In this document: in pieces, positions 92 to 62,479 of the stretch
Numbering within the stretch: the first letter of the stretch is position 1
How the letters are laid out: every line of letters starts with the position of its first letter
Assembly (NCBI GenBank): GCA_033239005.1
Contig: BSQZ01000100.1
Span: forward strand, 1,482,501 to 1,546,500
Reading direction: 5' to 3'
DNA from: Lamellibrachia satsuma
Taxonomy: Eukaryota > Annelida > Polychaeta > Sabellida > Siboglinidae
DNA length: 64,000 bases
Translations under genes and position numbers: made by a program
Notes under the pieces: model-generated
What the model was told of the DNA's origin: nothing
The model's input: the letters and a program-made list of their open reading frames with translations, nothing else
Database searches by the model: none

Positions 92-5657
<5,566 letters not shown>

Positions 5658-13905: not shown

Positions 13906-13933
13906 GGTCACCGATTTTTGTGCTGATACGATT

Positions 13934-18178: not shown

Positions 18179-18227
18179 TGTGCTCTTTGCCAACCCTATC
18201 ATCACATAGTTGTTTGCTCGTAGATAG

Positions 18228-18370
18228 CCTGCATTGAAACGTTGTGTATGACAATGTCTTGTTTTCTTCAAGTTGTGTGTGACAATGTCTTGTTTTCTTC
18301 AAGTTGTGTGTGACAGTGTCTTGTTTTTTTCAAGTTGCGTATGACAGTGTCTTGTTTTCTTCAAGTTGTG
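18228..18370. repeat. ~31-bp tandem repeat
   Basis: Units of AAGTTGTGTGTGACAATGTC plus TTGTTTTCTTC repeat four to five times at the switch point between loop and right arm. Confidence 0.9.
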
Positions 18371-19018
18371 TTCAATGTCTCCACGCATATCACACAGTGG
18401 TAAATGTCTACACACATATCACATGGTGGTGAATGTCTCCATGCATGTCACATGGCAGTCGATGTCTCCATGCATGTCACATGGCGGTCAATGTCTCCAT
18501 GCATACCATATGGCGGTTAATGTCTGCATACATATCACACAGTGGTAAATTTCTCCATGCATGTCACATGGCAGTCAAAGTCTCCATGCATACCACATGG
18601 TGTCAAATGTCTCCATACATATCACACAGGGGTAAATGTCTCCACACATATCACATGGTGGTGAACGTCTCCATACATATCACACAGCGGTAAATGTATC
18701 CATACATGTCACATAGCAGTCAATGTCTTCATGCATGTCACGTTGTGGTCAATGTCTCCACGCATATCACACAGTGGTAAATGTCCCCATGCATGTCACA
18801 TGGTGTCAAATGTCTCCATACATATTACACAGCGGTAAATGTCTCCATGCATGTCACATGACGGTCAATGTCTCCATGCATGTCACTTGATAGTCAATGT
18901 CTTCATGCATACCACATGGTGGTGAACGTCTCCATACATATCACACAGCGGTAAATGTCTCCATACATGTCACATAGCAGTCAATGTCTCCGTGTATTTC
19001 ACATTGTGGTCAATGTCT
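18371..19018. repeat. ~29-bp minisatellite, inverted (right arm)
   Basis: Reverse complement of the 15116-15800 block, including its rare variants, so it is a true arm copy and not independent expansion. Confidence 0.9.
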
Positions 19019-20179
19019 CCATCAGCGACTGACCAGTGTCAAAAAAGACAAGACGAGTGAGAGCGCACAAGCCAAAGTCCACCAACAGCGACTGACCAGT
19101 GTCAAAAAAGACAAGATGGGTGGAAGTACACAAGCCAAATTCCACCAACAGCGACTGACCAGTTTGAAAAAGACAAGACGAATGGAAGCGTACAAGCCAA
19201 AGTCCACCAACAGCGACTGACCAGTGTGAAAAAAGACAAGACGAGTGGGAGCGCACAAGCTTTCCTACAGTTTACCCATACCTCCTACAGTTTACCCATA
19301 ACTCCTACAGTTTACCCATAATTCCTACAGGTTTCCCATAACTCCTACAGTTTTGCAACTGACCAGTGTGAAAACAAGACAAGACGAGTGGGAGCGCACA
19401 AGCCTTCCTACAGTTTACCCATACCTCCTACAGTTTACCCATAACTCCTACAGTTTACCCATAATTCCTACAGGTTACCCATAACTCCTACAGTTTACCC
19501 ATAATTCCTACAGGTTACCCATAACTCCTACAGTTTACCCATAATTCCTACAGGTTACCCATAACTCCTACAGTTTACCCATAATTCCTACAATTTACCC
19601 ATACCTCCTACAGTTTAACCTGAAAGTTTGCTGACGATGTACTTTTTCTGGGTTTTTCCCGTGTTTTTCCCGCTGCATGCACGAACTTTCGTCCGCTAGA
19701 TTTCAGTCTGCTAGCTGGGTGAAAAGGCGTGACTTCGTTCGAACGTTCCAGAAAGCGGCGATGTTTGTTTTGTAGACCTTGACCTTTTGACCTTTTGACC
19801 TCGCGGTGTTTTTTGCAGACTCGTTGTGAAATAGGCGGTACGTAGATGTCAACGCGAAACGAAATACGTCGAAAGGTTCTCGATATAATGCAACGAGGCA
19901 ATATGCATCGCATAGCTTACATGCACGGTTACGTTTTTCCCGCTGCATGCACGAACTTTCGTCGGCTAGGTTTCAGTCTGCTAGTAGGGTGAAAATGCGG
20001 GATGGTGTTTCTTTTCGTGAGCGTGGAAAATTCCATGACGTCGTTCGAATGTTCCAGAAAAGAAGAAAAAAAACTACATGAAACCGGTTCAAACCGGTTT
20101 GAACCGGTTCATACCGGTTCTGTACCCAGGCACGTCTCGGAAAGCGCGTCATAATCGTCAGTATTAAACCGAAGACGAC

Positions 20180-20345
20180 AGAATTAGGGTTACTAACCCT
20201 AACCCTAACTGGCAATTGCATAAGTACAACAGATCGGCGATCTTTGACCTTTCATTGAGGTTAATAACCCAGCAGGGTCCGTATTAGGGTTCACTACACA
20301 CGTCAGAATTAGGGTTACTAACCCTAACCCTAATTGGCAATCGTA
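20180..20345. repeat. TTAGGG-like tracts, right arm
   Basis: GGGTTACTAACCCTAACCC-type tracts, inverted counterpart of 13934-14092. Confidence 0.8.
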
Positions 20346-20449
20346 TCAACACAAAAATCGGTGACCTTTGACCTTCGATCTTGCCCCGCAGCGCCGTCTG
20401 GTAATCGTATCAGCGCAAAACAATGCCCCAAAACAATATGGCAGCATCC

Positions 20450-21175
20450 ATAGAGAGGTCACGTGATATGCAAACGAGGAACTGTGACGTTGTAGCAGCG
20501 CCTCCTGGTGACCGTATCATCGCAAAACAACATGGCAGTAAAACAAGATGGCGGCATGTATAGATAAGTCACGTGATATACAAATGAGGAACTGTGACGT
20601 CATAAGTCACGTGACGGCTGTCGACCAATCAGAACAGCCGAAACTAGGTCACAAACCGTCGACACAATTGACCTGTAGCGCCCCATGTTGACAATATTAC
20701 CGCAAAATAATGTCTCGTGGGTAATAATAGGGGATGACACGTTGCGCCCCTGGTGACGGTATGACCGCAAAGGAGTGCGATTTTTGGTAATTCATGCTAA
20801 TATATGCAAATGAGCTGTGGCGTCATAGGTCACGTGATGGCTCTCGACCAATCAGATCCATCGATTCATTTACCCCCGTGTCGCCCCCTGGTGACGGTTT
20901 CACTACAAAACGGTGTAATTTATGCTAGTTTATGCAAATGAGCTGTAACGTCATAAGTCACGTGATGGTTCTCGACCAATCAGATCCGTCGACACAATCA
21001 CCCCCTTGGCGCCCCCTGGTGGTGAAACTGCTCTCGACCAATCAGATGCTTACCCAAATGTTGCAATTTGAGCGATAATAGGGGATTATACGGTGGCGCC
21101 CCTAGCGGCAATAAGCGCACGACCAATCAGAACGCTCCATTTCAAATTTCAACCAATCAGAAGCTTGGAGGATTC
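20450..21175 (+). promoter_or_regulatory. CCAAT/octamer/E-box monomer array upstream of LINE ORF1
   Basis: Monomers carry GACCAATCAGA, CACGTGAC or CACGTGATGG, and TGCAAATGAG. The array passes the end of the palindrome (about 20970) and goes on with three more CCAAT-type boxes (about 21036, 21120 and 21158), ending some 250 bp before the ORF1 relic. Tandem promoter monomers ahead of ORF1 are known in some LINEs (for example mouse L1). That role here is inference. Confidence 0.4.
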
Positions 21176-35043: not shown

Positions 35044-36725
35044 GGGCCATCCATAAAGTACGTCACACTCAGGGGGTTGTGGTGTCCGGTTAAGCGTTGC
35101 GGAGCGTTACGAGGGGTAGGGGTTTCTTGAAGATAGTTACTTAGTTATTTAAAAAGTGCTTTTGCTCGTCTTGATATGAGATTGATAACAATGATTGCTA
35201 CGGTTGTTTCGGGGTATATTTCAACCGTAGATATCAGAATGATAGTATTGATTGCTACGATTGTTTAGGGGTATATTTCAACTGTTGATATCAGAATGAT
35301 AGTATTGATTGCTACGGTTGTTTAGGGGTATATTTCAACTGTTGATATCAGACTGATAACATTGAATGCTACGGTTGTTTATGGATATATTTCAACTTTT
35401 GATGTCAGAATGATAGCATTGATTGCTACGGTTGTTTAGGGGTATAGTTCAACTGTTGATATCAGACTGATAGCATTGATTGATAAGGTTGGTTAGGGGT
35501 TTATGTCAACTATTGATATCAGACTGATAGCACTGATTGCTACTGTTTTCTAGGGATATATTTAAACTGTTGATATCAGACTGATAGCATTGATTGCTAC
35601 GGTTGTTTAGGGGTATATTTCAACTGTTGATATCAGACTGATAACATTGATTGCTACGGTTGTTTAGGGGTATATTTCAACTGTTGATATCAGACTGATA
35701 GCATTGATTGCTACGGTTGTTTAGGGGTATATTTCAACTGTTGATGTCAGGCTGATAGCACTGATTGCTACGGTTGTTTAGGGGTATATTTCAACTGTTG
35801 ATATCAGACTGATAACATTGATTGCTACGGTTGTTTAGGGAATATTTAAACTGTTGATATCAGACTGATAGCATTGATTGCTACGGTTATTTAGGGGTAT
35901 ATTTCAACTGTTGATATCAGACTGATAACATTGATTGCTACGGTTGTTTAGGGATATATTTCAACTGTTGATATCAGACTGATAGCATTGATTGCTACGG
36001 TTGGTTAGGGGTATATATCAACTCTTGATATCAGACTGATAGCATTGATTGATAAGGTTGGTTAGGGGTTTATATCAACTATTGATATCAGACTGATAGC
36101 ATTGATTGCTACGGTTGTCCATGGGTATATTTCAACTGTTGACAACATACTGATAACATTGATTGCTACGGTTGTATAGGGGTGTATTTCAACTGTTGAT
36201 ATCAGACTGATAGCATTGATTGCTATGGTTGTTTAGGGGTATATTTCAACTGTTGATATCAGACTGATAACATTGATTGCTACGGTTGTTTAGGGATATA
36301 TTTCAACTGTTGATGTCAGACTGATAGCATTGATTGCTACGGTTGTTTAGGGATATATTTCAACTGTTGATGTCAGACTGATAGCATTGATTGCTACGGT
36401 TGTTTAGGGGTATATTTCAACTGTTGATATCAGACTGATAGCAAAGGTTGCTACGGTTGTTTAGGGATATATTTCAACTGTTGATATGAAACTGATAGGA
36501 TTGATTGCTACGGTTGCTTAGGGGTATATTTCAACTGAAATCGATCGGAAAAGGCACAAGGGCTCTACAACGCATCAGTGAAGTATGTTATGGAGCTCGA
36601 AAAATCTGCAAACGTAGTGAAAATAAATGCATCCATAATTGTTGTGGGTCTTTCTCAAAACGAAGGTAATCTTAGGGGTGTGTACAGACCAGCGCCACGA
36701 AGCGTGACTACTGGGGGTCTCAAGA
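35044..36725. mobile_element. Second GGGCCATCCATAAAGTACG MITE, expanded by minisatellite
   Basis: The left end GGGCCATCCATAAAGTACGT is conserved. The inner sequence matches 26311-26460 up to about 35130 and again from about 36655 (CAGCGCCACGAAGCGTGA). Between them lies a 1.4-kb minisatellite. The right TIR is not recognisable. Confidence 0.65.
35160..36532. repeat. 57-58-bp minisatellite, about 24 copies
   Basis: Units of TTGCTACGGTTGTTTAGGGG plus TATATTTCAACTGTTGATAT plus CAGACTGATAGCATTGA. Variants at fixed positions (GATAGC or GATAAC) group neighbouring units. Confidence 0.97.
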
Positions 36726-43968: not shown

Positions 43969-44085
43969 GCCAGTTCCTCGAAGCGTTCGTATCGTTACAA
44001 GGAACTGATTCAGACGTTTGACGACGATTGCGTAGCTCAGAAAAATTGTAGACAACACGAAGAGCGTTACGAACAATTGTACGTA
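43969..44085. mobile_element. MITE-like element cut by the palindrome
   Basis: Begins GGGGCCAGTTCCTCGAAGCG and matches 648-760 up to ACAATTGTACGTA, where palindrome 2 begins. The rest (GCTACGAACTG) resumes at 56691 and is shortened. Confidence 0.6.
44080..44085. repeat. Putative 6-bp target duplication, left
   Basis: TACGTA immediately before the palindrome; the same word follows it at 56685-56690. The paralogous unfilled site (751-756) has one copy. TACGTA is its own reverse complement, so the border could also lie further out. Confidence 0.6.
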
Positions 44086-44105
44086 AGTAGTATGTAAGTC
44101 GTTTT

Positions 44106-44600
44106 CATACCCCCAATTGTGGGTCGATTTTTGTGGTAGCTAAAAATAGACGGTAGCTAAAAATAGACATTGGTTAATTTTAATTTTCTAAAAATAGACA
44201 TTGGTTAATTTTAATTTTTATTTAAAATTTTTAATTTTTAATTAAAATTTTTTTTATTTTAATTTTTTTTTTTTTATTTCAATTTCAGGAAAAACCCACA
44301 TATCGCTGACGTGGCATACATTGGTTAAAAATAGACATTGGGAAAAACCCACATATCGCTGACGTGGCGTTTATTTTAATTTTTTTTTTAATTAATTAAA
44401 ATTTTTATTTTTTATTTTATTTTTATTTTTTATTTAAATTTTTTATTTAAATTTTTATTTTAATTTTAATTTAAATTTCGGGAAAAACCCACATATCGCT
44501 GACGTAGCGGTTAGTGGGAAAAACCCACCTATCGCTAACGTGACGGTTATTTAGGGAAAACCCACATATCGCTGACGTGGCGGTTATTGAGTATGGTATC
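44106..44600. repeat. Terminal block: CCCACATATCGCTGACGTGG repeats and AT-rich runs
   Basis: GGGAAAAACCCACATATCGC plus TGACGTGGCGG occurs about five times between A/T homopolymer-like runs. The inverted copy is at 56170-56665. The unit holds TGACGTGG, a CRE-like word, but function is unknown. Confidence 0.85.
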
Positions 44601-45309
44601 AATGAATGAGAGAGCTAATCAATCAGGGTTCAGTACGTTATCGGTGAATGGTATAAAGAGCTGTGATTCGTCGGTTATAGTTTTATAAATGTTATGCGTA
44701 TGAGTTTCATAAAAATCGTGGATGATTAATGAGGCAAGGAGGATGAATGGCTCGTGTGTCCATCTGGTAGGAGATGGGTAGATGCTCGCGGGGCATACCG
44801 CTGACGTTGCGGTTAGGGTATATGCTCCCGTTTCGCGGAATGCAGCGGGCTACATACCATGTTAGGAATGCGGTCGTGTTGTATTCCGTAATATGACACC
44901 GCTCTGCCGCATTCCCGAAAGGACGCATTAAGGCGATACTAACAGCTGATTAGTGGATTTTGGTACTCGAGAAATGCACGTTTTAAATAACCTGGCTATA
45001 TGTAGTCATATTAGCGCTGTAGTTAAAGCGCTGGTTCGCCCACTGGATGTATGCAAGTCTGAACACGTTGAAAGATAAGCCCGTCATTTGCACAATGCTG
45101 TGCAGTAATTTATTCGATGCCAGCTATGATGAAAATCGGGTTTCATTATTGTTATTTTTGTCGTTTCTCTAAGAAGAGTAGACCACGTGACGTCCTGTCT
45201 GCATAAAAATAAAAAAACAGCTGTATATGCATCAACGAGTTGACCTGTATGCGTACATCTAACATATTTAGGGTATTGGTTATCGTATGAATCATACATA
45301 GCACGAGTA

Positions 45310-46190
45310 ATGAGAAAGAGTACCGATTTGTCTAAGAAAATACCGCTTTTATATGTATTTTGTCACACTTAGTTACGTATGTAATGCTGTTGAGCTAAGT
45401 GTTTACCACATTTATCTGCCTGTTAACATGTTAAGTAAATGTCACTTTTATTTGTATCTTACCACATTTTAGCTACGTAATTGCCACGCTTGTCTGTGTG
45501 CTAACGCTTTTAGCATATTAAGTATCACTTTTAATTGTATGTTAACGCTATTTAGCTAAGTATATACCACATTCTATGTTAAGTTTGTTTTCGCAAAGTA
45601 AATATCACTTTTAGTTGTACGTTACCGCTTTTCAGCTAAGTAAGTACCAAATATGTTAATGAGTTTAGCTAAGTAAATACCGCATTTAGCTGTAAGTTAA
45701 CGCTTTTAAGATAAGAAATTACCACATTTAGCTGTATGTTAGCGATTTTAAGCTAATTATTCACCATATTTGCCTGCATGTTAACGGTTTTAAGCTAAGC
45801 AAATACAACTTTTAGCTAAGTAATTAGCATTTTTAGCTAAGTAAGTACCATATTTAGTTGCAAGTTAACGCTTTTAAGTTAAGTAATTACCACATATGTT
45901 AAAACTGTTTAGCTAATAAATGACCACATTTAGCTGTATGTTAGCGCTTTTTACCTAAATAATTACCACATTTAGTTGTATGTTAACGCTTTTAAGCTAA
46001 GCAATTACCGCATTTAGCTGCGTGTTAACGTTTTTAGCTAAGAAATTACCATATTTAGCTGTATGTTACTGCTGTTTAACTAAGGAATTACCACATTTAG
46101 CTGTATGGTAACGCTTTTTAACAAAGTATTTATCGCATTTCGTTTCATGTTAACGCATTGAAACTAAGTATTTACCACATTCACCTGTAT
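45310..46190. repeat. ~46-bp degenerate repeat (TTAGCTGTATGTTAACGC)
   Basis: About 18 units of TAAGTAATTACCACATTTAG plus CTGTATGTTAACGCTTTTA. Inverted copy at 54590-55440. Confidence 0.9.
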
Positions 46191-48884
46191 GCTAAGGTAC
46201 TCGGGAAATGCGCGTGATTAATAACACGGTTTTCTGTAGGAATTATTATTGTAATACCACGCCTGTCGGGGCGCGCTATAGCAGAGAGCTATTTTAAAAC
46301 ACTGGGCGAGGTAAGTACATCAGTATAGACGAACGAGTGGACCGTGGACTGTGGACTCCGGTTGCCTTAGCAACGAACGGGGTGCGCTGTTACGATCGAT
46401 GTAACAACCTGCATCGTTGTAAGAACTGCATCTATAGTTTATGTTTGTTTTGGTACACTTGCATTGTATGACTAATCTTAGTTAATTGTGGTACACTTTA
46501 ATTTGCTAACTGTATATACGAGCGTCATAACATCATGGCGTTAGCCCTGTGTCTGTATTTTTAAACTGTATGACATTTCTCTACCATTTTCTAAACCATG
46601 TGTCATTTTTGCCGTACCATTTTTATTGAATGTATAAAAGATTGCCGCACCGGGTATCTGGTCATATGATACCCTTTTATGGTGGCGTATCGAAATTAAA
46701 CCGTTCACCTTGTATCTTATCAACTAGAAGTATAAAAGCAGTCACCCAAACAATAAATGTTGACAAGTCTGGAATTTAACCGACATCCTGTTAAAACTGA
46801 CACAATTTTTAATTTTCTTACAAAGTTATGGCATGTTTGGTTAAAAATAATCAAGCAGTTATGTGAATATTTGTTGGAAAATAAAATCGTTCTTAGGTTT
46901 CCTGCGGTATTGAAGTAATGATGCTATGACAGCAAATGTTTAACATCTCTAACCTACAATATAAACATATGAAAGGTTTTTTCGTAGATATTTTTCTACT
47001 GTACACTTTGAGCAATCTAAACAAAAATCTCAACAACACTATTGTTAAATTATCCTGGGTGTGTGTGTGTGTGTGCGTATTGCATATGTTGTGTATTATA
47101 TTCTACTTCCAAAGTGGCCTGGTATCGCATATTGTTTCTGTATATTTCATACACAAACATCCGTGAACTTGGGATCCATGTATAATATAAATATAGCAGG
47201 GTATATCAGCTTCATCCAGTTGATATCATATTTATTTTAATTGTATTATCATATAAATACATAACCATATATTTTTATATTCCAATACCCCAACTGAAAA
47301 CTGGCGAAATGCTTTAATAACATAAAAAAATGGATGGTGAAAAAAACTACATACATATTAGTCTTCTAAATAGGCCACCCATGTGACCAAGATAAACTGG
47401 TCTGATTACAGAGGCTGGTGAGATATACAAATGTGTAGATCTGACAAAAACACGGGGTTTAAGGGGTGGCTGTTTCCAACGGGTGCTTTTTGTAACTGGT
47501 TCTACTGTATCTATGGAATCAACCTTTTAGCTACTACACACATCATTCTTGAAACCTAAATATTAGTTTATCAAATGTTGTATTTGTATTTTTGCATGCT
47601 CTTCGTTGATTGCATTAAATATACACATCCTTATCAGACAATGAAATATGTTTTGCTAGATTTGGACCACCATTTGTACCAACAACAAAAAATGAAATCC
47701 AATTCCAGGTACCTTTAACATTGTTTTTCTGTAGTGCTGTTTTAGTGGGTCTTAATATAATTGTTAATTTGCTTTTATAAGTTTTGTACATATGCGCAGA
47801 TTCAGAATATATAGATATAACAAATGCTGTATACAACCTCTTTTCTTGACCCCAGCACGTTTTAAACCTTTGGCGAACCAAGTTGTCTTGTTAGTGCTAC
47901 GATACTCTAGGATGTGTTCTCAGGCTAGTGACTGGAATAGTTACTGCAGGCCTTTTTAGACAACTGGGTAACACGACTGTGAACTATCCTGTAATACCTA
48001 CTGTTAAGCGAGCACTTAATTCAGAGTTAATTGCGAATTTGTCAAAGAGATTAAATTAGGCTGTAATTTTCTTGACTGGGTGTTGAATGAAAGAAAAAGA
48101 ACAAAGAATGCGCAACGACTGCAATGACATCAGCAACTATTTTAGTATTCGTGTTTCATTGGTAGTCTCGTGAATGGAAACATTGTTGCATCGCTTTTAA
48201 AATGTGTATACTCCCGCCGGTAGACACACACGATGAGACAATTGGTATTTTCTTTAACTGCGAGACATTTCGCAGTCATTTTTCTTTTAACTGCGTGACC
48301 TGTTATTTTCTTTTGTTGTGACATTTTTGTGTATTTTTATTTAACTGCGTGACATTTACCAATCTTAGCTAATTCGGTTTGTCACACATGTAACGCTGTT
48401 TTATAAGTGTGTAACACATTCACTATGTAGTAACGCGTTTAGCTATTCTTCCAATGGCATACACAGCGCTGTCTCCACAGCATGTACCATCCGTTGACCT
48501 TTTTTTCCATTACTGGTCACCACTTCCACCATTTACCTCCGTCTGACTGTCCCTAAGAGCAACTCCATACATTGCCCCTACATTCATATGTGTCCGTAAT
48601 TTGGTTAGTTAATGACATTTGATACATTGTTACTAGGTACATGATAGCTGGTATAGAAAAAACGTCACTGCTCATTAATTTCAAAAGATCCAGTTTGCAC
48701 AAGGGTTACTCCTAGAGCGAGATAAATACGCCGGACGAGAGTGCAGTCGTCAAGAAATCGGTTACGTAATGGGAAGTAAAAATCTAGCTGCAGGAAAAGC
48801 ACATGCCTTGCAGTAGACACGGTTCCCCATGACGCAATAGCTGTCAGTGTCTGGTGCAGGCTCCAACGGCCGTTTCGCTAGGAA

Positions 48885-48963
48885 GGGGTCAGGGTTAGGG
48901 TAGGGTTAGAACTCGAGGGTAGCGATAGGAGGGGTTGGGTTAGGGTAGGGTTAGGTTTAGGGG
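48885..48963. repeat. TTAGGG-like tracts in palindrome 2
   Basis: GGTTAGGGTAGGGTTAG and similar tracts; inverted copy at 51815-51895. Comparable tracts occur in palindrome 1. Confidence 0.8.
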
Positions 48964-49954
48964 GTAGCGAAACGGATACGAGGGCGCCACCTAAACGCTC
49001 CATTATATTTCGAAAAGTTTGTGTTTTGACTTCAAATCATATGATATTTGACCTAATTAATATTGCCATTTGACCTAGTTCATTTGACATAATAATAATA
49101 ATAATATAATTATAATAACTTTATTGTAAAAAAAAAAAAATGGAAATACGTCTTACACTGAGGAGATAGCATAAAAACATACTTTAAATCACATTCAACC
49201 ATGCAGTATGTACAGTAATAAAATCAAGTATGTAGACAGAGTAGATAATGAGTAATACCAAGTGTTATATACATTATAATCATTTGCCTTAATTAAGTTG
49301 AGATTTGACCTAATTAAGTTGACCGTGTATTTTATGGGAAGAACAGCTAAACGCGTTGCATAGTGAATGTGTTACATCCTTGGCAAACAGCTTTACATAT
49401 GTGACAAAAACGCATACGTAGTTAAAAAAAGACACAAAAATGTCACACAGTTAAAGGAAAGGTTGTTTTGCTAAATCGTTATTTCGCCACTTCGTGCAGT
49501 CAGACGTATGTGAAGATTGGGGGTAGAGGGCATTGATGGATGAAGAGTCAACGAACGGATGTGGATGGAGATGCAGGTGGCCAGTAATGGATGAATATTC
49601 TTGCAGAGGTAGACGAACGGCGGTCAATGTAGGGGTAGTGGGAGGGGATGAATGAAAGGAGAGATGGGCGGTAAATAAAATGTTTGAAGATACTACGAAG
49701 GGCAATTGTGGATGGGGTGAACTGACCAGTAATGAAAGAATATTCTGGTGCATGGGGTGACTATACAGGACTGTATACGAAGATGGTAGTGGACGGAAAT
49801 GAAGATAGCGAACAGACAGGCGGACATACGTAGCTAAACGCGTTACTACATAGCTGAATGCATTGCATACTTGGTAAAAAGCGTTACATACGCAGTTAAT
49901 ATTGGCCTGTAATGGTTAGTGAGGTGACAATGAACACTGTAAGTGTCAGGTAGG

Positions 49955-50190
49955 TGACTTGTGCGCTCCCACTCCTCTTGTCTTTTTGACATTGGTCAGT
50001 CGCTGTTGATGGACTTTGACTTCTTTGACTTGTGCGCTCCCTCTCGTTTTACTTTTTGACATTGGTCAGTCGCTATTAGTGGACTTTGGCTTGTGTGCTG
50101 CCACTCATTTTATCTTTTTTTGACATTGATCAGTCGTTGTTGATGGACTTTGGCTTGTGCGCTTCCACTCGTCTTGTCTTTTTTATATTG
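49955..50190. repeat. ~63-bp repeat near palindrome 2 axis, left
   Basis: About four units with TTGTGCGCTCCCACTCCTCT, TGTCTTTTTGACATTGGTCA and GTCGCTGTTGATGGACTTTG. Homologous to 14941-15115 and 16866-17140. The inverted set is at 50585-50815. Confidence 0.95.
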
Positions 50191-50199
50191 GTTACACCT

Positions 50200-50577
50200 T
50201 CTTGCAGGCTATCTAGGGTTATTCAACCGACAAGAGGTTGGGGTTACACCTTTTTCCGTAGCGTCGCCGCTAAAAAGCTGGTAGGATTGTGCAAACAGCA
50301 CTGTCTCGATGCAGTCTATCTAGGGTCATTCAACCGACAAGAGGTTGGGGTTAGGCTTTTTCCGTACCGCCGCCGCCACGGAACACGCGCGTGCTCCGTG
50401 GCGGCGGCAGTACGGAAAAGCCTAACCCCAACCTCTTGTCGGTTGAATGACCCTAGATAGACTGCATCGAGACAGTGCTGTTTGCACAATCCTACCAGCT
50501 TTTTAGCGGCGACGCTACGGAAAAAGGTGTAACCCCAACCTCTTGTCGGTTGAATAACCCTAGATAGCCTGCAAGAA
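50200..50577. repeat. Axis-proximal direct and inverted repeats of palindrome 2
   Basis: Each half has two copies of CTAGGGTTATTCAACCGACA plus AGAGGTTGGGGTTA followed by a GC-rich TTTTTCCGTA-CGCCGCC stretch. The centre is GC-rich and would form a long hairpin. Confidence 0.9.
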
Positions 50578-50584
50578 GGTGTAA

Positions 50585-50815
50585 CCAATATAAAAAAGAC
50601 AAGACGAGTGGAAGCGCACAAGCCAAAGTCCATCAACAACGACTGATCAATGTCAAAAAGATAAAATGAGTGGCAGCACACAAGCCAAAGTCCACTAATA
50701 GCGACTGACCAATGTCAAAAAGTAAAACGAGAGGGAGCGCACAAGTCAAAGAAGTCAAAGTCCATCAACAGCGACTGACCAATGTCAAAAAGACAAGAGG
50801 AGTGGGAGCACAAGT
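50585..50815. repeat. ~63-bp repeat near palindrome 2 axis, right
   Basis: Reverse complement of 49955-50190. Confidence 0.95.
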
Positions 50816-53800
50816 CACCTACCTGACACTTACAGTGTTCATTGTCACCTCACTAACCATTACAGGCCAATATTAACTGCGTATGTAACGCTTTTTACCA
50901 AGTATGCAATGCATTCAGCTATGTAGTAACGCGTTTAGCTACGTATGTCCGCCTGTCTGTTCGCTATCTTCATTTCCGTCCACTACCATCTTCGTATACA
51001 GTCCTGTATAGTCACCCCATGCACCAGAATATTCTTTCATTACTGGTCAGTTCACCCCATCCACAATTGCCCTTCGTAGTATCTTCAAACATTTTATTTA
51101 CCGCCCATCTCTCCTTTCATTCATCCCCCCCACTACCCCCTACATTGACCGCCGTTCGTCTACCTCTGCAAGAATATTCATCCATTACTGGCCACCTGCA
51201 TCTCCATCCACATCCGTTCGTTGACTCTTCATCCATCAATGCCCTCTACCCCCAATCTTCACATACGTCTGACTGCACGAAGTGGCGAAATAACGATTTA
51301 GCAAAACAACCTTTTCCTTTAACTGTGTGACATTTTGTGTGTCTTTTTTTTAACTACGTATGCGTTTTTGTCACATATGTAAAGCTGTTTGCCAAGGATG
51401 TAACACATTCACTATGCAACGCGTTTAGCTGTTCTTCCCATAAAATACACGGTCAACTTAATTAGGTCAAATCTCAACTTAATTAAGGCAAATGATTATA
51501 ATGTATATAACACTTGGTATTACTCATTATCTACTCTGTCTACATACTTGATTTTATTACTGTACATACTGCATGGTTGAATGTGATTTAAAGTATGTTT
51601 TTATGCTATCTCCTCAGTGTAAGACGTATTTCCATTTTTTTTTTTTTACAATAAAGTTATTATAATTATATTATTATTATTATTATGTCAAATGAACTAG
51701 GTCAAATGGCAACATTAATTAGGTCAAATATCATATGATTTGAAGTCAAAACACAAACTTTTCGAAATATAATGGAGCGTTTAGGGTGGCGCCCTCGTAT
51801 CCGTTTCGCTACCCCCTAAACCTAACCCTACCCTAACCCAACCCCTCCTATCGCTACCCTCGAGTTCTAACCCTACCCTAACCCTGACCCCTTCCTAGCG
51901 AAACGGCCGTTGGAGCCTGCACCAGACACTGACAGCTATTGCGTCATGGGAACCGTGTCTACTGCAAGGCATGTGCTTTTCCTGCAGCTAGATTTTTACT
52001 TCCCATTACGTAACCGATTTCTTGACGACTGCACTCTCGTCCGGCGTATTTATCTCGCTCAGGAGTAACCCTTGTGCAACTGGATCTTTTGAAATTAATG
52101 AGCAGTGACGTTTTTCTATACCAGCTATCATGTACCTAGTAACAATGTATCAAATGTCATTAACTAACCAAATTACGGACACATATGAATGTAGGGGCAA
52201 TGTATGGAGTTGCTCTTAGGGACAGTCAGACGGAGGTAAATGGTGGAAGTGGTGACCAGTAATGGAAAAAAAGGTCAACGGATGGTACATGCTGTGGAGA
52301 CAGCGCTGTGTATGCCATTGGAAGAATAGCTAAACGCGTTACTACATAGTGAATGTGTTACACACTTATAAAACAGCGTTACATGTGTGACAAACCGAAT
52401 TAGCTAAGATTGGTAAAATGTCACGCAGTTAAATAAAAATACACAAAAATGTCACAACAAAAGAAAATAACAGGTCACGCAGTTAAAGAAAATGACTGCG
52501 AAATGTCTCGCAGTTAAAGAAAATACCAATTGTCTCATCGTGTGTGTCTACCGGCGGGAGTATACACATTTTAAAAGCGTGCAACAATGTTTCCATTCAC
52601 GAGACTACCAATGAAACACGAATACTAAAATAGTTGCTGATGTCATTGCAGTCGTTGCGCATTCTTTGTTCTTTTTCTTTCATACACCCAGTCAAGAAAA
52701 TTACAGCCTAATTTAATCTCTTTGACAAATTCGCAATTAACTCTGAATTAAGTGCTCGCTTAACAGTAGGTATTACAGGATAGTTCACAGTCGTGTTACC
52801 CAGTTGTCTAAAAAGACCTGCAGTAACTATTCCAGTCACTAGCCTGAGAACACATCCTAGAGTATCGTAGCACTAACAAGACAACTTGGTTCGCCAAAGG
52901 TTTAAAACGTGCTGGGGTCAAGAAAAAGAGGTTGTATACAGCATTTGTTATATCTATATATTCTGAATCTGCGCATATGTACAAAACTTATAAAAGCAAA
53001 TTAACAATTATATTAAGACCCACTAAAACAGCACTACAGAAAAACAATGTTAAAGGTACCTGGAATTGGATTTCATTTTTGTTGTTGGTACAAATGGTGG
53101 TCCAAATCTAGCAAAACATATTTCATTGTCTGATAAGGATGTGTATATTTAATGCAATCAACGAAGAGCATGCAAAAATACAAATACAACATTTGATAAA
53201 CTAATATTTAGGTTTCAAGAATGATGTGTGTAGTAGCTAAAAGGTTGATTCCATAGATACAGTAGAACCAGTTACAAAAAGCACCCGTTGGAAACAGCCA
53301 CCCCTTAAACCCCGTGTTTTTGTCAGATCTACACATTTGTATATCTCACTAGCCTCTGTAATCAGACCAGTTTATCTTGGTCACATGGGTGGCCTATTTA
53401 GAAGACTAATATGTATGTAGTTTTTTTCACCATCCATTTTTTTATGTTATTAAAGCATTTCGCCAGTTTTCAGTTGGGGTATTGGAATATAAAAATATAT
53501 GGTTATGTATTTATATGATAATACAATTAAAATAAATATGATATCAACTGGATGAAGCTGATATACCCTGCTATATTTATATTATACATGGATCCCAAGT
53601 TCACGGATGTTTGTGTATGAAATATACAGAAACAATATGCGATACCAGGCCACTTTGGAAGTAGAATATAATACACAACATATGCAATACGCACACACAC
53701 ACACACACCCAGGATAATTTAACAATAGTGTTGTTGAGATTTTTGTTTAGATTGCTCAAAGTGTACAGTAGAAAAAATATCTACGAAAAAGCCTTTCATA

Positions 53801-54589
53801 TGTTTATATTGTAGGTTAGCGATGTTAAACATTTGCTGTCATAGCATCATTACTTCAATACCGCAGGAAACCTAAGAACGATTTTATTTTCCAACAAATA
53901 TTCACATAACTGCTTGATTATTTTTAACCAAACATGCCATAACTTTGTAAGAAAATTAAAAATTGTGTCAGTTTTAACAGGATGTCGGTTAAATTCCAGA
54001 CTTGTCAACATTTATTGTTTGGGTGACTGCTTTTATACTTCTAGTTGATAAGATACAAGGTGAACGGTTTAATTTCGATACGCCACCATAAAAGGGTATC
54101 ATATGACCAGATACCCGGTGCGGCAATCTTTATACATTCAATAAAAATGGTACGGCAAAAATGACACATGGTTTAGAAAATGGTAGAGAAATGTCATACA
54201 GTTTAAAAAATTACAGACACAGGGCTAACGCCATGATGTTATGACGCTCGTATATACAGTTAGCAAATTAAAGTGTACCACAATTAACTAAGATTAGTCA
54301 TACAATGCAAGTGTACCAAAACAAACATAAACTATAGATGCAGTTCTTACAACGATGCAGGTTGTTACATCGATCGTAACAGCGCACCCCGTTCGTTGCT
54401 AAGGCAACCGGAGTCCACAGTCCACGGTCCACTCGTTCGTCTATACTGATGTACTTACCTCGCCCAGTGTTTTAAAATAGCTCTCTGCTATAGCGCGCCC
54501 CGACAGGCGTGGTATTACAATAATAATTCCTACAGAAAACCGTGTTATTAATCACGCGCATTTCCCGAGTACCTTAGCATACAGGTGAA

Positions 54590-55440
54590 TGTGGTAAATA
54601 CTTAGTTTCAATGCGTTAACATGAAACGAAATGCGATAAATACTTTGTTAAAAAGCGTTACCATACAGCTAAATGTGGTAATTCCTTAGTTAAACAGCAG
54701 TAACATACAGCTAAATATGGTAATTTCTTAGCTAAAAACGTTAACACGCAGCTAAATGCGGTAATTGCTTAGCTTAAAAGCGTTAACATACAACTAAATG
54801 TGGTAATTATTTAGGTAAAAAGCGCTAACATACAGCTAAATGTGGTCATTTATTAGCTAAACAGTTTTAACATATGTGGTAATTACTTAACTTAAAAGCG
54901 TTAACTTGCAACTAAATATGGTACTTACTTAGCTAAAAATGCTAATTACTTAGCTAAAAGTTGTATTTGCTTAGCTTAAAACCGTTAACATGCAGGCAAA
55001 TATGGTGAATAATTAGCTTAAAATCGCTAACATACAGCTAAATGTGGTAATTTCTTATCTTAAAAGCGTTAACTTACAGCTAAATGCGGTATTTACTTAG
55101 CTAAACTCATTAACATATTTGGTACTTACTTAGCTGAAAAGCGGTAACGTACAACTAAAAGTGATATTTACTTTGCGAAAACAAACTTAACATAGAATGT
55201 GGTATATACTTAGCTAAATAGCGTTAACATACAATTAAAAGTGATACTTAATATGCTAAAAGCGTTAGCACACAGACAAGCGTGGCAATTACGTAGCTAA
55301 AATGTGGTAAGATACAAATAAAAGTGACATTTACTTAACATGTTAACAGGCAGATAAATGTGGTAAACACTTAGCTCAACAGCATTACATACGTAACTAA
55401 GTGTGACAAAATACATATAAAAGCGGTATTTTCTTAGACA
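54590..55440. repeat. ~46-bp degenerate repeat, right arm
   Basis: Reverse complement of 45310-46190, unit by unit. Confidence 0.9.
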
Positions 55441-56684
55441 AATCGGTACTCTTTCTCATTACTCGTGCTATGTATGATTCATACGATAACCAATACCCTA
55501 AATATGTTAGATGTACGCATACAGGTCAACTCGTTGATGCATATACAGCTGTTTTTTTATTTTTTATGCAGACAGGACGTCACGTGGTCTACTCTTCTTA
55601 GAGAAACGACAAAAATAACAATAATGAAACCCGATTTTCATCATAGCTGGCATCGAATAAATTACTGCACAGCATTGTGCAAATGACGGGCTTATCTTTC
55701 AACGTGTTCAGACTTGCATACATCCAGTGGGCGAACCAGCGCTTTAACTACAGCGCTAATATGACTACATATAGCCAGGTTATTTAAAACGTGCATTTCT
55801 CGAGTACCAAAATCCACTAATCAGCTGTTAGTATCGCCTTAATGCGTCCTTTCGGGAATGCGGCAGAGCGGTGTCATATTACGGAATACAACACGACCGC
55901 ATTCCTAACATGGTATGTAGCCCGCTGCATTCCGCGAAACGGGAGCATATACCCTAACCGCAACGTCAGCGGTATGCCCCGCGAGCATCTACCCATCTCC
56001 TACCAGATGGACACACGAGCCATTCATCCTCCTTGCCTCATTAATCATCCACGATTTTTATGAAACTCATACGCATAACATTTATAAAACTATAACCGAC
56101 GAATCACAGCTCTTTATACCATTCACCGATAACGTACTGAACCCTGATTGATTAGCTCTCTCATTCATTGATACCATACTCAATAACCGCCACGTCAGCG
56201 ATATGTGGGTTTTCCCTAAATAACCGTCACGTTAGCGATAGGTGGGTTTTTCCCACTAACCGCTACGTCAGCGATATGTGGGTTTTTCCCGAAATTTAAA
56301 TTAAAATTAAAATAAAAATTTAAATAAAAAATTTAAATAAAAAATAAAAATAAAATAAAAAATAAAAATTTTAATTAATTAAAAAAAAAATTAAAATAAA
56401 CGCCACGTCAGCGATATGTGGGTTTTTCCCAATGTCTATTTTTAACCAATGTATGCCACGTCAGCGATATGTGGGTTTTTCCTGAAATTGAAATAAAAAA
56501 AAAAAAATTAAAATAAAAAAAATTTTAATTAAAAATTAAAAATTTTAAATAAAAATTAAAATTAACCAATGTCTATTTTTAGAAAATTAAAATTAACCAA
56601 TGTCTATTTTTAGCTACCGTCTATTTTTAGCTACCACAAAAATCGACCCACAATTGGGGGTATGAAAACGACTTACATACTACT

Positions 56685-56690
56685 TACGTA
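56685..56690. repeat. Putative 6-bp target duplication, right
   Basis: TACGTA directly after the palindrome; see 44080-44085. Confidence 0.6.
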
Positions 56691-57923
56691 GCTACGAACT
56701 GTAAATACATTGTGTCATCTGGTCCTGCATTATCAACAGCGTTACTGGTAGTAGTAAATGTTACTTCTTAAAACACAACCGGCTTTGACTTGGGCAATAA
56801 GTTTCCACAGTATGATGCCAACAATACATGCATTTATCATAATCCATTTTCGACAAGTTCAAACGATGATACGATTTCATTCTAAATTCCCTACCAGGGG
56901 CGCCACTCACCAGTTTAATACTGCTACAACTTATATTTGATGTGCACTTTCTGCACATCTTTATTTCATTAGATGAACTCCTAATTTATATCAAGAAATC
57001 TCTCAATTTCAATTGCATGCAATTGTGGATAGTGTTTGCATTGAACATGTGTCTAGAAACAAATCATAAACAACAGAGTCAACCAATTGTTTATACGACT
57101 CCACAACTGTCCAGTTTTAAGTTATAAGCAAGTTGTTGCAGTGGTAATATGACGAGTGGCGCCTCTCTTTGGGAGTGTGGCTTCGTTCAATACAAATGAT
57201 ATGAAGAGTTAAGTAATAGTCACTAGGTGGCGTTGGTGGTACGCTAAACTAGTTTTAGCTAGTAGAAGCACACATCTCTTAGTATTGTCGGCGACGTTTC
57301 CTTTGCAAGGTTTATGTCGTAATGTCGTCTATAAGATATAAAGCACCCATGTGAATCGAACATAGATTATGTGTGTGTGCGTGCGTGCGTGCGTGCGTGC
57401 GTGCGAGCGTGCGTGCGTTCTAAATTAATGTATAGTTTTTACTTTCTAAATATGGGACGTTGCTAGATCTTTAAGGTAATTTCCATGATATATTAATGAA
57501 AATAAAATAACATAAACCAAACACGCTTTCCACCAACAAAACAAACAGGAAATGTTGACTGCCAAACACATTATCAGAGGTTCCCAATCTCCTGATTGGG
57601 AGGAGAGATCCCGCTCTATTGTCAATGTTGTCATTTATCTTGCTTCGTTTTTAAATAAACGTCTTCTTTTTGCACACATTCCTGCACAACTGTAAACATA
57701 ATAAAATAATGATAAGTGTGTGATACATATGTCATTTTGCATGGTTAAGTTTTTATAAAGGTTGGCTAGAAAATGCATAAAATGAAACATGTCCGTACTG
57801 TTGGTTCTCTCCTTCCCACCTGCCTCATATTATTAGTCCTTTATGTCACCTCCAAGATAAGGATTTCCTTCCTCCTAATTAAATAAATTGGCAGACCTGT
57901 ATTATTACCACATGTTTACGTAC

Positions 57924-58037
57924 CGACGGTGCAATTGGGACCAGACCATCCGGACGTACACTGACATTCGTAACCACGATCTCGGCTGATGCACACAGCG
58001 TTGTTCTTACACGGATTGTCGCTGCACGTTAAGTGAT
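57924..58037 (-). CDS. Gene B EGF exon a
   Basis: 114 nt, phase 1-1, donor GTACGT, acceptor TTTCAG. Reads HLTCSDNPCKNNAVC, ISRDRGYECQC, TSGWSGPNCTV. Intact. Its downstream intron contains palindrome 2. Confidence 0.85.
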
Positions 58038-58781
58038 CTGAAACATTAATAACGGTTGCTAAGTAATATCATTGTTTTTGTGATTCCTCTGTTTTGTGGA
58101 TATGCCAGTGCACTTTTTTGCAGATATCAAGTGATACCTGCATCATGGGTTAAGTGAGACACGCGTGTATGTATCGTAAAGGATACAATAAGCGCTATAT
58201 AATATCACACTCCCCAACAGTGTCGTCAATCATCATATCATGGTGCATATAAAATGGTTAACGCGAATTAAAAGTTTGAGATCAAATGTAAAACAGCATT
58301 TTGTGTGACAAACACAAACATTATATTTGTGTGACAGTAACAACAATTTATATCTCAGCGATATACAAACAATTAAATATGTAGCATACTTTCCAAATAT
58401 GGAACGTTGCTAGTTTTTTAAGGTAATTTGCATGATATATTAAAAAAATAATTTAAACCAAACACGCCTTCCACCAACAAACAAAGAGGAAATGTTGACT
58501 GCCAAACACATTATCAGAGGTTCTCAGTCTCCTGATGTCGATAGGAGAGATCCCGCTCTATTGCCAATGTTGCTATTTATTCTGCTTCTTTTTCAACTAT
58601 TCATCTACGGTTTCTATAAAAGGTGGCTGTAGAGTGAATAAAATGGAACATTTCCATACTGTGGGTTTTCTTCTTCGCCACCTTTCTCATATTAGTCATC
58701 GGATATGTCATCTCCCACAGGAGGATCTCCTCCTAATGATCTAACTCGGTACACATACATTAATGCCACATGGTAACCTAC

Positions 58782-58895
58782 CGACGCCACAATTGGGACC
58801 AAACCATCCGGACGTACACTGACATTCGTAACGTCGATCTCGGTTGACACACGTAGCGTTGTTCTCACACGGATTGTAGCTGCACGTTAAGTTAC
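58782..58895 (-). CDS. Gene B EGF exon b
   Basis: 114 nt, phase 1-1, donor GTAGGT, acceptor TTTCAG. Reads NLTCSYNPCENNATC, VNRDRRYECQC, TSGWFGPNCGV. Intact and closest to gene A exon 3728-3841. Confidence 0.85.
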
Positions 58896-59117
58896 CTGAA
58901 ACATTAAGAGCGGATTATACATTCACAATAGTAAGCTGCTATGTAGTATAAACGACTGGTTGCCCGGGCAACGCGATTGTTGTTTACGACTTGCAGCATT
59001 GAAACTGTACACTCACGCATGCGTAAAATAGTTTCAAACAAAATAGAATTGTGTTGTGTTTCTATACACATTTTCAGTGCAAACTTCTTTAAATTGAGTG
59101 ATTGTTTGACAACCATC

Positions 59118-59223
59118 AGGACTTGCTAACTTCCTCAGCAACATGCACTCCAACGACAACGTCATAGTTATGGGAGACTTCAATGCCAGTGTTGGTTCAG
59201 ATTACTCAACATGGCCAAATTGT
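59118..59223 (+). pseudogene. Non-LTR retrotransposon endonuclease fragment
   Basis: Plus strand reads NMHSNDNVIVMGDFNASVGS then DYSTWPN. The GDFNA.VG.D...W motif is the conserved endonuclease signature of LINE ORF2. Only about 35 codons remain; a SINE follows directly. Confidence 0.85.
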
Positions 59224-59510
59224 GGGGCGCGATAGAATACCGGTTAGAATGCCGGACTCTCAATCGAGAGAACCCGGTTTCAAACCCACTTTGGCAAGTT
59301 TGATCACCCCGCGTGGCTACAGTTCACTCAGCTGTATAAATGAGTACCTGGCAATATAGACAGTGGTGGATATGTGAACGAATAGTCTTCGCGCAGTAAT
59401 TGCAGCGTAGCTGAATGCTTCCCGGGGAAGTTGAACTGACCTTGGAATGAACATGTCTTCCAGGGGGTGCAGTGTAAAGCGCTTTACCTTTACCTTTTCT
59501 TACCTTTACC
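59224..59510 (+). mobile_element. tRNA-derived SINE copy 4
   Basis: Head GGGGCGCGATAGAATACCGG, CCCGGTTTCAAACCC (B-box-like), body with TTCGCGCAGTAATTGCAGCG and end AAAGCGCTTTACCTTTACC. Plus orientation. Confidence 0.85.
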
Positions 59511-60156
59511 AAACTCAGATACAGACATTTACTGTAGATATGTACTGAAGACAAACTTACTATTTCATGCAATTTGTTCAAACAGTTTGATATTGTAAAA
59601 ACACCGTGGACTCATCCACGATCAAAACAGGGACACTTGGTTTATATCATCGCTTAGTAAAGAATCATTCGAACATTATGTGCATAAGAGTCACGAGGGG
59701 AGCCAACTTTTCGATTTGTCACCAACAGGCAAGATGCAAACTGAAATTAAACCTGAGGAGAAGCATGCTTGCACACTTGCTGTCTCCAAGCTGAAGTCAG
59801 AGAATGGTCCTACCATACTAAAGGATGAAGGTGCAAAATTGAAAATATGAACTGATGACTTCCAACACATACTCGCTATGCCATAGGTATAGACTCCATG
59901 CAGTTGTACTTACTTCTTCAATATATGCCTACACGGAGAGGACTCTAGCCATCTGAATCAAGCAAACAGTAGTAATCCCAAATCGCTACGTTCAACCAGA
60001 GGAAAGATATAAGAAACATATGTTATTTGTAGTACTTTATAAATGCTATTCCACCTTGCAGACTGGAACAACGAAGTATACAAATATTCTACAATGAGCA
60101 ATCGAATTGTTGTTATATAACGTATTATTGTTGTTGATATAACGTATTATTCTTAC

Positions 60157-60311
60157 TGAATTGACAACATCGGCCATAACCATGATCTTCACATCGGCAT
60201 TGGCTACCCAAGGAGACACCAAAGACACAGTTAAGGCGACACGCGGCTGTCTCGATGACGTCCGATAACGTGAGATGACACTTTATTCCACATGTTGTTG
60301 GACTCCAGTCC
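60157..60311 (-). pseudogene. Gene B TSP/Cys-rich exon, 5' part missing
   Basis: The minus strand keeps the second half: TTCGIKCHLTLSDVIETAAC, RLNCVFGVSLGSQCRCEDHG, YGRCCQF, with donor GTAAGA. The TSP1 W..W..C half and the acceptor are lost at the 60311 junction with the duplicated segment (CCAGTCC then ATGGTTAAG). Confidence 0.85.
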
Positions 60312-60494
60312 ATGGTTAAGTTTTTATAAAGGTTGGCTAGAAAATGCATAAAATGAAACATGTCCGTACTGTTGGTTCTCTCCTTCCCACCTGCCTCATA
60401 TTATTAGTCCTTTATGTTATCTCCAAGATAAGAATCTCCTTCCTCCTAATTAAATAAATTGGCAGACCTGTATTATTACCACATGTTTACGTAC

Positions 60495-60608
60495 CGCCGG
60501 TGCAATTGGGACCAGACCATCCGGACGTACACTGACATTCGTAACCACGATCTCGGCTGATGCACACAGCGTTGTTCTTACACGGATTGTCGCTGCACGT
60601 TAAGTGAT
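60495..60608 (-). CDS. Gene B duplicated EGF exon a'
   Basis: 114 nt, almost the same as 57924-58037 with a change at its 3' edge (ACCGGCG instead of ACCGTCG). Open and splice-competent by sequence. Confidence 0.7.
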
Positions 60609-61347
60609 CTGAAACATTAATAACGGTTGCTAAGTAATATCATTGTTTTTGTGATTCCTCTGTTTTGTGGATATGCCAGTGCACTTTTTTGCAGATATCA
60701 AGTGATACCTGCATCATGGGTTAAGTGAGACACGCGTGTATGTATCCTAAAGGATACAATAAGCGCTATATAATATCACACTCCCCAACAGTGTCGTCAA
60801 TCATCATATCATGGTGCATATAAAATGGTTAACGCGAATTAAAAGTTTGAGATCAAATGTAAAACAGCATTTTGTGTGACAAACACAAATATTATATTTG
60901 TGTGACAGGAACAACAATTTATCTCTCAGCGATATACAAACAATTAAATATGTAGCATACTTTCCAAATATGGAACGGTCCTAGTTTTTAAGGTAATTTG
61001 CATGATATATTAAAAAAATAAAATAATTTAAACCAAACACGCCTTCCACCAACAAACAAACAGGACATGTTGACTGCCAAACACATTATCAGAGGTTCCC
61101 TGTCTCCTGATGTCGATAGGAGAGATCCCGCTCTGTTGTCATTTATTCTGCTTCTTTTTCAACTATTCATCTACGGTTTCTATAAAAGGTGGCTGTAGAG
61201 TGAATAAAATGGAACATTTCCATACTGTGGGTTTTCTTCTTCGCCACCTTTCTCATATTAGTCATCGGATATGTCATCTCCCACAGGAGGATCTCCTCCT
61301 AATGATCTAACTCGGTACACATACATTAATGCCACATGGTAACCTAC

Positions 61348-61459
61348 CGACGCCACAATTGGGACCAAACCATCCGGACGTACACTGACATTCGTAACGT
61401 CGATCTCGGTTGACACGTAGCGTTGTTCTTACACGGATTGTAGCTGCACGTTAAGTTAC
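61348..61459 (-). pseudogene. Gene B duplicated EGF exon b' with 2-bp deletion
   Basis: Copy of 58782-58895 but 112 nt long: GACACACGTAG (plus strand) became GACACGTAG. The frame shifts in the middle of the EGF domain and the last cysteines are lost. Confidence 0.85.
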
Positions 61460-61681
61460 CTGAAACATTAAGAGCGGATTATACATTCACAATAGTAAGC
61501 TGCTATGTAGTATAAACGACTGGTTGCCCGGGCAACGCGATTGTTGTTTACGACTTGCAGCATTGAAACTGTACACTCACGCATGCGTAAAATAGTTTCA
61601 AACAAAATAGAATTGTGTTGTGTTTCTATACACATTTTCAGTGCAAACTTCTTTAAATTGAGTGATTGTTTGACAACCATC

Positions 61682-61787
61682 AGGACTTGCTAACTTCCTC
61701 AGCAACATGCACTCCAACGACAACGTCATAGTTATGGGAGACTTCAATGCCAGTGTTGGTTCAGATTACTCAACATGGCCAAATTGT
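61682..61787 (+). pseudogene. LINE endonuclease fragment, duplicate
   Basis: Duplicate of 59118-59223 with the same GDFNASVGSD motif. Confidence 0.85.
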
Positions 61788-62074
61788 GGGGCGCGATAGA
61801 ATACCGGTTAGAATGCCGGACTCTCAATCGAGAGAACCCGGTTTCAAACCCACTTTGGCAAGTTTGATCACCCCGCGTGGCTACAGTTCACTCAGCTGTA
61901 TAAATGAGTACCTGGCAATATAGACAGTGGTGGATATGTGAACGAATAGTCTTCGCGCAGTAATTGCAGCGTAGCTGAATGCTTCCCGGGGAAGTTGAAC
62001 TGACCTTGGAATGAACATGTCTTCCAGGGGGTGCAGTGTAAAGCGCTTTACCTTTACCTTTTCTTACCTTTACC
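61788..62074 (+). mobile_element. tRNA-derived SINE copy 5
   Basis: Duplicate of 59224-59510, created by the segmental duplication and not by a separate insertion. Confidence 0.85.
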
Positions 62075-62479
62075 AAACTCAGATACAGACATTTACTGTA
62101 AATATGTACTGAAGACAAACTTACTATTTCATGCAATTTGTTCAAACAGTTTGATATTGTAAAAACACCGTGGACTCATCCACGATCAAAACAGGGACAC
62201 TTGGTTTATATCATCGCTTAGTAAAGAATCATTCGAACATTATGTGCATAAGAGTCACGAGGGGAGCCAACTTTTCGATTTGTCACCAACAGGCAAGATG
62301 CAAACTGAAATTAAACCTGAGGAGAAGCATGCTTGCACACTTGCTGTCTCCAAGCTGAAGTCAGAGAATGGTCCTACCATACTAAAGGATGAAGGTGCAA
62401 AATTGAAAATATGAACTGATGACTTCCAACACATACTCGCTATGCCATAGGTATAGACTCCATGCAGTTGTACTTACTT

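Follow-up and report, generated by a model that had tools for sequence, protein, structure and literature searches.

Palindromic Mobile Elements in Lamellibrachia satsuma Probably Derived from One End of a Maverick/Polinton

The stretch of Lamellibrachia satsuma DNA analysed here (contig BSQZ01000100.1, positions 1,482,501 to 1,546,500; 64,000 nt, hereafter the window) contains a 12.6-kb palindrome at window positions 44086-56684. The palindrome is a real, repeatedly inserted, multi-copy mobile element. We think that its family probably consists of non-autonomous Maverick/Polintons, which arose through snap-back replication and were dispersed by the enzymes of Polintons. Judged from sequence comparison, the copies have common ends with a gene-bearing Polinton, carry target-site duplications, originate from one Polinton end and have homogenised arms, and doubling of this kind appears in more than one Polinton lineage.

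Palindrome and Insertion Site in the Window

The alignment of 44080-56690 with its own reverse complement covered 12,640 columns with 99.4% identity. The near-perfect palindrome described in the first-pass annotation of this DNA thus held over the full 12.6 kb, with 6.3 kb per arm. The arms showed approximately 30 small differences, of which about half were one-base insertions or deletions, and substitutions were found at 9 of 6,233 compared bases. The exact termini are AGTAGTATGTAAGTCG...CGACTTACATACTACT. The self-complementary sequence TACGTA flanks the palindrome on the left and on the right as an exact 6-bp duplication. The joined flanks aligned straight across window positions 612-779 (82% identity), where TACGTA occurs once (751-756). 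Because the joined flanks run unbroken across this paralogous site with a single TACGTA, the element is read as an insertion with a 6-bp duplication, as the annotation had claimed.

The longest open reading frame in the window palindrome was 157 aa, and neither PolB nor an integrase was encoded. The Pfam scan covered six frames and gave no family above the cut-off and one weak match (DUF7175, E 0.0057). Rfam and tRNA searches of the palindrome gave no match. The features of the element are as follows.

44080..44085, no strand: left target-site duplication TACGTA (self-alignment, empty-site comparison, duplication survey)
44086..50388, plus strand: left palindrome arm, terminus to axis (self-alignment)
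44086..44766, plus strand: outer 681 bp of the left arm, 88-89% identical to the protease-side end of Polinton G000:C100:1648699 in two overlapping pieces
44532-44766, plus strand: arm 447-681 within the left outer end, 93% identical to the protease side of the C100 Polinton only
45508..46195, plus strand: left-arm minisatellite region with 42- and 84-bp units (repeat analysis)
49954..50184, plus strand: near-axis minisatellite with a 64-70 bp unit, resembling repeats of the separate inverted-repeat element at 13320-20951
50362..50415, no strand: GC-rich axis hairpin, interpreted as a shortened version of the longer axes that other copies have
50389..56684, minus strand: right palindrome arm, axis to terminus (self-alignment)
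50584..50812, minus strand: right-arm minisatellite with a 62-bp unit (repeat analysis)
54574..55337, minus strand: right-arm minisatellite with a 42-bp unit (repeat analysis)
56004..56684, minus strand: mirror of the outer 681 bp (position taken from the arm coordinates)
56685..56690, no strand: right target-site duplication TACGTA (self-alignment, empty-site comparison, duplication survey)
612..779, plus strand: paralogous empty site, TACGTA once at 751-756 (alignment to the joined flanks)

Copies, Ends and Target-Site Duplications

The genome searched (G000) comprises 735 Mb in 279 contigs, and copies are named by contig (C4, C53, C110 and so on). Copy numbers should be taken as minima; 40 of 361 candidates were scored and, for a probe of the Polinton protease-capsid region, 40 of 1,208. 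As the annotation had suggested, the terminal word was searched genome-wide and the flanking 6-mers were listed. The terminal 16-mer with at most one mismatch occurred at 89 sites, against 23 for the reversed-pattern control. The exact 16-mer occurred at 59 sites, which formed 27 facing pairs and 5 unpaired ends by our own pairing. With 5 of the 27 pairs left out of the reading, 16 were palindromes, namely 13 long ones (the window's included) and 3 short ones. Six other facing pairs, spaced 15.4-20.1 kb, contained one match each to the protease-capsid probe among the 40 scored.

Nineteen long copies were read, counting those with altered or missing ends. The arm-to-arm identity of the longest block was 98.15-99.59% in 17 of the 19 copies (C21, 94.9%; C3b, 96.6%), where the block compared shrinks to 2.8 kb if a piece border interrupts it. 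One arm of C15 lacks approximately 1.2 kb beside the axis. Both ends were read in 20 elements, namely 15 long palindromes, 4 short elements and 1 Polinton, and every one of these has a perfect 6-bp duplication. For four further long copies one end is missing from the sequence read: the left arm of C5 contains an N stretch, 8 terminal bases are gone from C17, and C30 and C3b each have one end unmatched in the pieces. The middle positions of the 20 duplications were C in 14, G in 13 and T in 14, and TACGTA was the duplication of three elements. This C-G-T bias and the recurrent TACGTA are read from the flanks as a target preference. The family also seems to insert into itself, because the flanks of one copy (L033/L034, G000:C21:4293974-4306041) resemble the terminal region of another copy, with matches to arm 241-460 and 455-653.

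Palindromes are a known assembly artefact and can arise from hairpin (missed-adaptor) reads. Such an origin would fit the one-base insertions and deletions that make up about half of the arm differences, and copy C5 adjoins an N stretch. However, the symmetry ends exactly at the duplications and the flanks beyond them differ, duplications are present in each of the 20 elements with both ends read, and subfamily differences are present on both arms. We therefore regard an artefact as highly improbable. The annotation had named hairpin reads as an objection to its own reading; the objection fails because there are many copies, and every one of them has separate flanks and a duplication of its own.

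A Gene-Bearing Polinton with the Same Ends

A 15.4-kb element (C100:1648699-1664057) is located on the window's own contig, approximately 110 kb from the window palindrome. Its terminal 16-mer is identical to that of the palindromes, and it has the 6-bp duplication TGTGTC. Compared with itself inverted, it showed a terminal repeat of 199 bp only. The annotation had described the palindrome ends as Maverick/Polinton-like, and this comparison with an autonomous element of the same genome bears it out.

The integrase frame of the C100 element matched rve (E 5.5e-13) and Chromo (E 6e-7), and the packaging ATPase frame matched Adeno_IVa2 (E 5.1e-5), all above the Pfam cut-off. A 454-aa frame had 4,080 relatives among 8,000 scored; its assignment as capsid comes from one of 120 listed relatives, which bears PF21738 (double jelly-roll). 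The named animals among these 120 were tubeworms (Lamellibrachia, Ridgeia). The PolB frame continues from one piece into the next, where the coordinates put the two parts in phase (1,270 aa in L020 and 255 aa in L019), and it has relatives that bear PF03175, a PolB family of the protein-primed kind. The element is counted as a Maverick/Polinton by its predicted gene content, because of its PolB, integrase, ATPase, capsid and (weak) protease frames.

The protease-capsid probe gave 40 matches with 97-100% identity. Since the matches are this similar with so few candidates scored, the C100-type lineage looks young and numerous.

Origin of Both Palindrome Ends

The pieces compared were L019, with the protease-side end of the C100 Polinton, and L020 and L028, with the PolB-side ends of the C100 and C21 Polintons. 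Arm 1-681 matched the C100 protease-side end with 88-89% identity; repeats within this region split the alignment into two pieces whose Polinton coordinates overlap (200-469 and 288-675). On the PolB side, the end of the C100 Polinton matched arm 1-202 and a repetitive 104 bp. Arm 447-681, inside the terminal repeat, matched the protease side (L019 449-675) with 93.2% identity, and had no real match to the PolB-side ends of the C100 and C21 Polintons (L020, L028). Therefore, on this alignment test, both outer ends of the palindrome are taken to descend from a single, protease-side Polinton end. A simple internal-deletion derivative of a Polinton was considered and is disfavoured, as it would retain two different ends. 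Non-autonomous deletion derivatives and miniature inverted-repeat transposable elements also lack genes and are moved in trans; however, a Polinton derivative of that type retains one end of each kind, whereas the palindromes carry one end twice.

Short Palindromes with Polinton Genes

C53 (3,398 bp, duplication ATTGCT) is a protease-side end doubled head to head. Its arms run from L019 position 200 to approximately 1865 and then from 1930 back to 200, with more than 99% identity. The turn has a 5-nt inverted match (TCGCG/CGCGA) with a loop of approximately 60 nt between. In C110 (4,317 bp, duplication GTCGTA), the arms measure 1,875 bp and are 99.5% identical, and the sequence turns from L019 2381 to 1813 with a loop of 569 bp. 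Both consist of the protease-side end with protease and capsid sequence, and their axes are off-centre. Among the 40 protease-capsid probe matches scored, C53 and C110 were the only elements with two each.

C53 was 99.4-99.5% identical to the C100 Polinton and C110 was 97.8% identical to it, and C110 and C53 were 96.9-97.6% identical to each other. Given these unequal identities, C53 and C110 were doubled from different lineages; by this comparison, two or more Polinton lineages have produced palindromes in addition to the large family. Two other short elements have large-family sequence and each carry one end type twice: C23 (1,865 bp, duplication GACACG; arms of 702 bp at 95%, loop of approximately 480 bp) and C22 (1,247 bp, duplication GCCGCG; internally asymmetric). 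They may be deletion derivatives of the large palindrome, and they are left out of the count of separate doublings because internal deletion of a large palindrome could yield both.

The turns of C53 and C110 would also suit end joining in head-to-head orientation. Here microhomology would link a pair of shortened Polinton molecules outside the chromosome (or sister copies), both with a protease-side end, and the product would then be integrated; fold-back replication would not be needed. The unequal arms and the matches of 5 nt and at most 3 nt at the turns fit this equally well. However, it requires two molecules broken 60 bp (C53) or 569 bp (C110) apart, instead of one strand folding on itself, and by itself it does not explain the homogenised arms. 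We consider end joining unlikely, though it is the strongest competitor of snap-back replication.

A chromosomal origin was also considered, in which a break in an integrated Polinton is repaired by inverted copying of the sister's protease-side end and is rejoined through the terminal repeat, with the old duplication retained. The terminal repeats of approximately 200 bp provide homology for rejoining, and the outermost 140 or so alignment columns are uninformative, in that they do not tell the Polinton ends apart. However, both arms of C53 have the protease-side state at most of 18 diagnostic columns of the terminal repeat, which confines such rejoining to the outermost 140 bp or so. This route also does not explain the many dispersed, nearly identical 12.6-kb copies, each with its own duplication, and we judge it less likely still. 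Because both arms hold protease-side states at most diagnostic columns, the doubling of C53 most likely preceded integration.

The annotation had raised the possibility of a new class of non-autonomous foldback element made only of inverted repeats. The element is non-autonomous and consists of inverted repeats throughout, but it does not stand apart from Polintons, given the C100 partner and the Polinton genes in C53 and C110. The arm minisatellites, as in known foldback elements, would agree with an ordinary foldback transposon from a different superfamily whose insertion happens to yield 6-bp duplications, and coding sequence was sought in the arms and not found. Against it are the terminal 16-mer and protease-side end sequence in common with the Polinton and the protease and capsid sequence inside C53 and C110, which make it improbable. 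Foldback (FB) and Galileo elements likewise have long, internally repetitive inverted repeats. However, Galileo is classed with P elements by its transposase (PMC3573991), whereas the palindrome has Polinton-type ends and duplication.

Similarity between the Two Arms

The divergence of the arms was measured in a 1.8-kb core in 38 arms from 19 copies. It was 0.31% when the two arms came from one copy and 1.01% when they came from different copies. The true pairs were closer than in every one of 20,000 random re-pairings of arms, and subfamily structure contributes to this result. Of 67 shared biallelic core sites, 48 had the variant only on both arms of a copy, 11 were mixed and 8 had it on single arms only; singletons accounted for a further 66 sites. 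Within one subfamily, ten close copies had 17 variants with two carriers; in 8 of these the carriers were the two arms belonging to a single copy, where 0.88 would be expected, and 1 of 20,000 re-pairings reached that number. A variant present on one arm thus often recurs on its mate, and these patterns are read as homogenisation of arms within copies.

Arm pairing in a single-stranded intermediate with mismatch repair, chromosomal gene conversion and separate doubling of subfamilies would all produce such homogenisation, and the data do not separate them. Read polishing may have equalised the arms slightly, and is an unlikely source of subfamily-wide differences.

Axis of the Long Copies

The axis was readable in 14 of the 19 long copies. 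Seven of them, the window copy included, had a compact axis hairpin, and seven (C12, C17, C30, C35, C4, C46 and C5) had an additional asymmetric stretch. The annotation's description of arms without a spacer is thus right for the window copy but not for half of the readable axes. For the 94-nt axis of C4, C12 and C17 (L045, L016 and L042), the predicted fold has an outer stem that bears two hairpins (-47.4 kcal/mol, z -6.8), and that of the 54-nt axis of the window copy has -28.6 kcal/mol (z -6.4). The compact axis would be a deletion derivative of the longer form. The T-shaped 94-nt axis recalls a parvovirus telomere. C30 and C35 have longer axes that resemble it in sequence length and form of insert.

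Proposed Origin of the Palindromes

We propose that the starting point was extrachromosomal replication of a Polinton through protein-primed strand displacement, in which a strand begun at the protease-side end halted internally. The 3′-end of this strand would fold onto a few complementary bases and be extended as far as the point where the strand began, so that both strands of the resulting hairpin carry the same end. The hairpin would then be copied round into a linear palindrome with a valid Polinton terminus on each side, which the Polinton integrase would insert with a 6-bp duplication. One such palindrome, in which each arm has approximately 5.6 kb of non-coding DNA internal to the Polinton end, may have become a successful satellite and spread, and its arms may have been equalised by pairing with each other in the single-stranded intermediate. 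We infer the extrachromosomal hairpin, the protein priming and the mobilisation by Polinton integrase and PolB. A model of Polinton replication has a looped-out excised single strand with a terminal-repeat panhandle for PolB (PMC4046053), and the roles of PolB and integrase in Polintons are treated in PMC6431247.

Several observations weigh against the snap-back origin. The inner 5.6 kb of the arm had no tblastx match to the C100 Polinton at E 0.1, and the blastn matches were short and chance-like (best E 0.009 among the matches listed). With chance-like matches only in the inner arm, the case for a Polinton origin of the large family draws on the outer end and on the analogy with C53 and C110. 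In C110, the microhomology at the switch does not exceed 3 nt and is imperfect. The unequal arms and the short matches at the turns would fit head-to-head joining, or later deletion at the axis of a longer palindrome, equally well. The gene content of the C100 Polinton also has weak points: its protease frame matched Peptidase_C5 (adenovirus protease) weakly and below the cut-off (E 0.041), and the Pfam scan of the PolB pieces gave zinc fingers and a weak Exo70 match and no PolB match. As for the arms, the mate was the nearest neighbour, alone or jointly, for 16 of the 38 arms and was not for the other 22, which we attribute to young copies being almost identical. Of the 48 both-arm sites, 35 were private to one copy, and the 8 single-arm and 11 mixed sites also count here. 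Chromosomal gene conversion or separate subfamily doubling could be partly behind the likeness of the arms.

More tentatively, we speculate that the palindromes are self-reproducing satellites of Polintons and exist as hairpins. Each cycle would pass through a 6.3-kb molecule with a terminal-protein-type end opposite a closed T-shaped hairpin, and the arms would be re-equalised every time. Such a satellite would multiply at the expense of the Polinton, like a heritable defective-interfering genome.

Comparison with Known Systems and Implications

The target-site duplication of Maverick/Polintons is 6 bp. The palindrome resembles them in this duplication, in its AG...CT ends and in having its termini in common with a PolB- and integrase-bearing copy of the same genome. 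It differs in that no genes were found in it and it appears to be built wholly from one Polinton end, and its arms far exceed the approximately 200-bp terminal repeat of the gene-bearing copy.

Snapback genomes of adeno-associated virus (AAV), both symmetric and asymmetric, were found by single-virion genome analysis (PMC8235507). These defective-interfering genomes are likewise self-complementary, of one-end origin and symmetric or looped, and they replicate with helper functions according to the same study. However, AAV is a parvovirus and its snapback genomes are packaged molecules, whereas the palindromes here are integrated and multiplied in the host genome. No paper joining Polintons with snapback was found, and none on palindromic Polintons by title or the start of the abstract among the papers listed, in a literature coverage that leaves out most subscription papers and all bioRxiv preprints and is no proof of absence.

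The one-end palindromes, which occur in more than one Polinton lineage with normal duplications, look like fossils of Polinton replication and make its model testable from genome data. The arm-to-arm divergence may serve as an insertion clock, as in long terminal repeat (LTR) elements. If the proposed origin is true, the family would be a defective-interfering-like lineage inherited in an animal genome, and, if it is also transcribed, a natural source of very long hairpin RNA.

Other Repeats in the Window

A second inverted-repeat element, rich in minisatellites, is located at 13320-20951. Its outer arms are approximately 2.6 kb long and 90.6% alike, and it has a unit of approximately 62 bp in common with the region near the palindrome axis. 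Beside the palindrome, the segments 57740-59915 and 60311-62479 are duplicated with 98.3% identity. A 57-bp minisatellite unit is repeated 24 times at 35171-36537.

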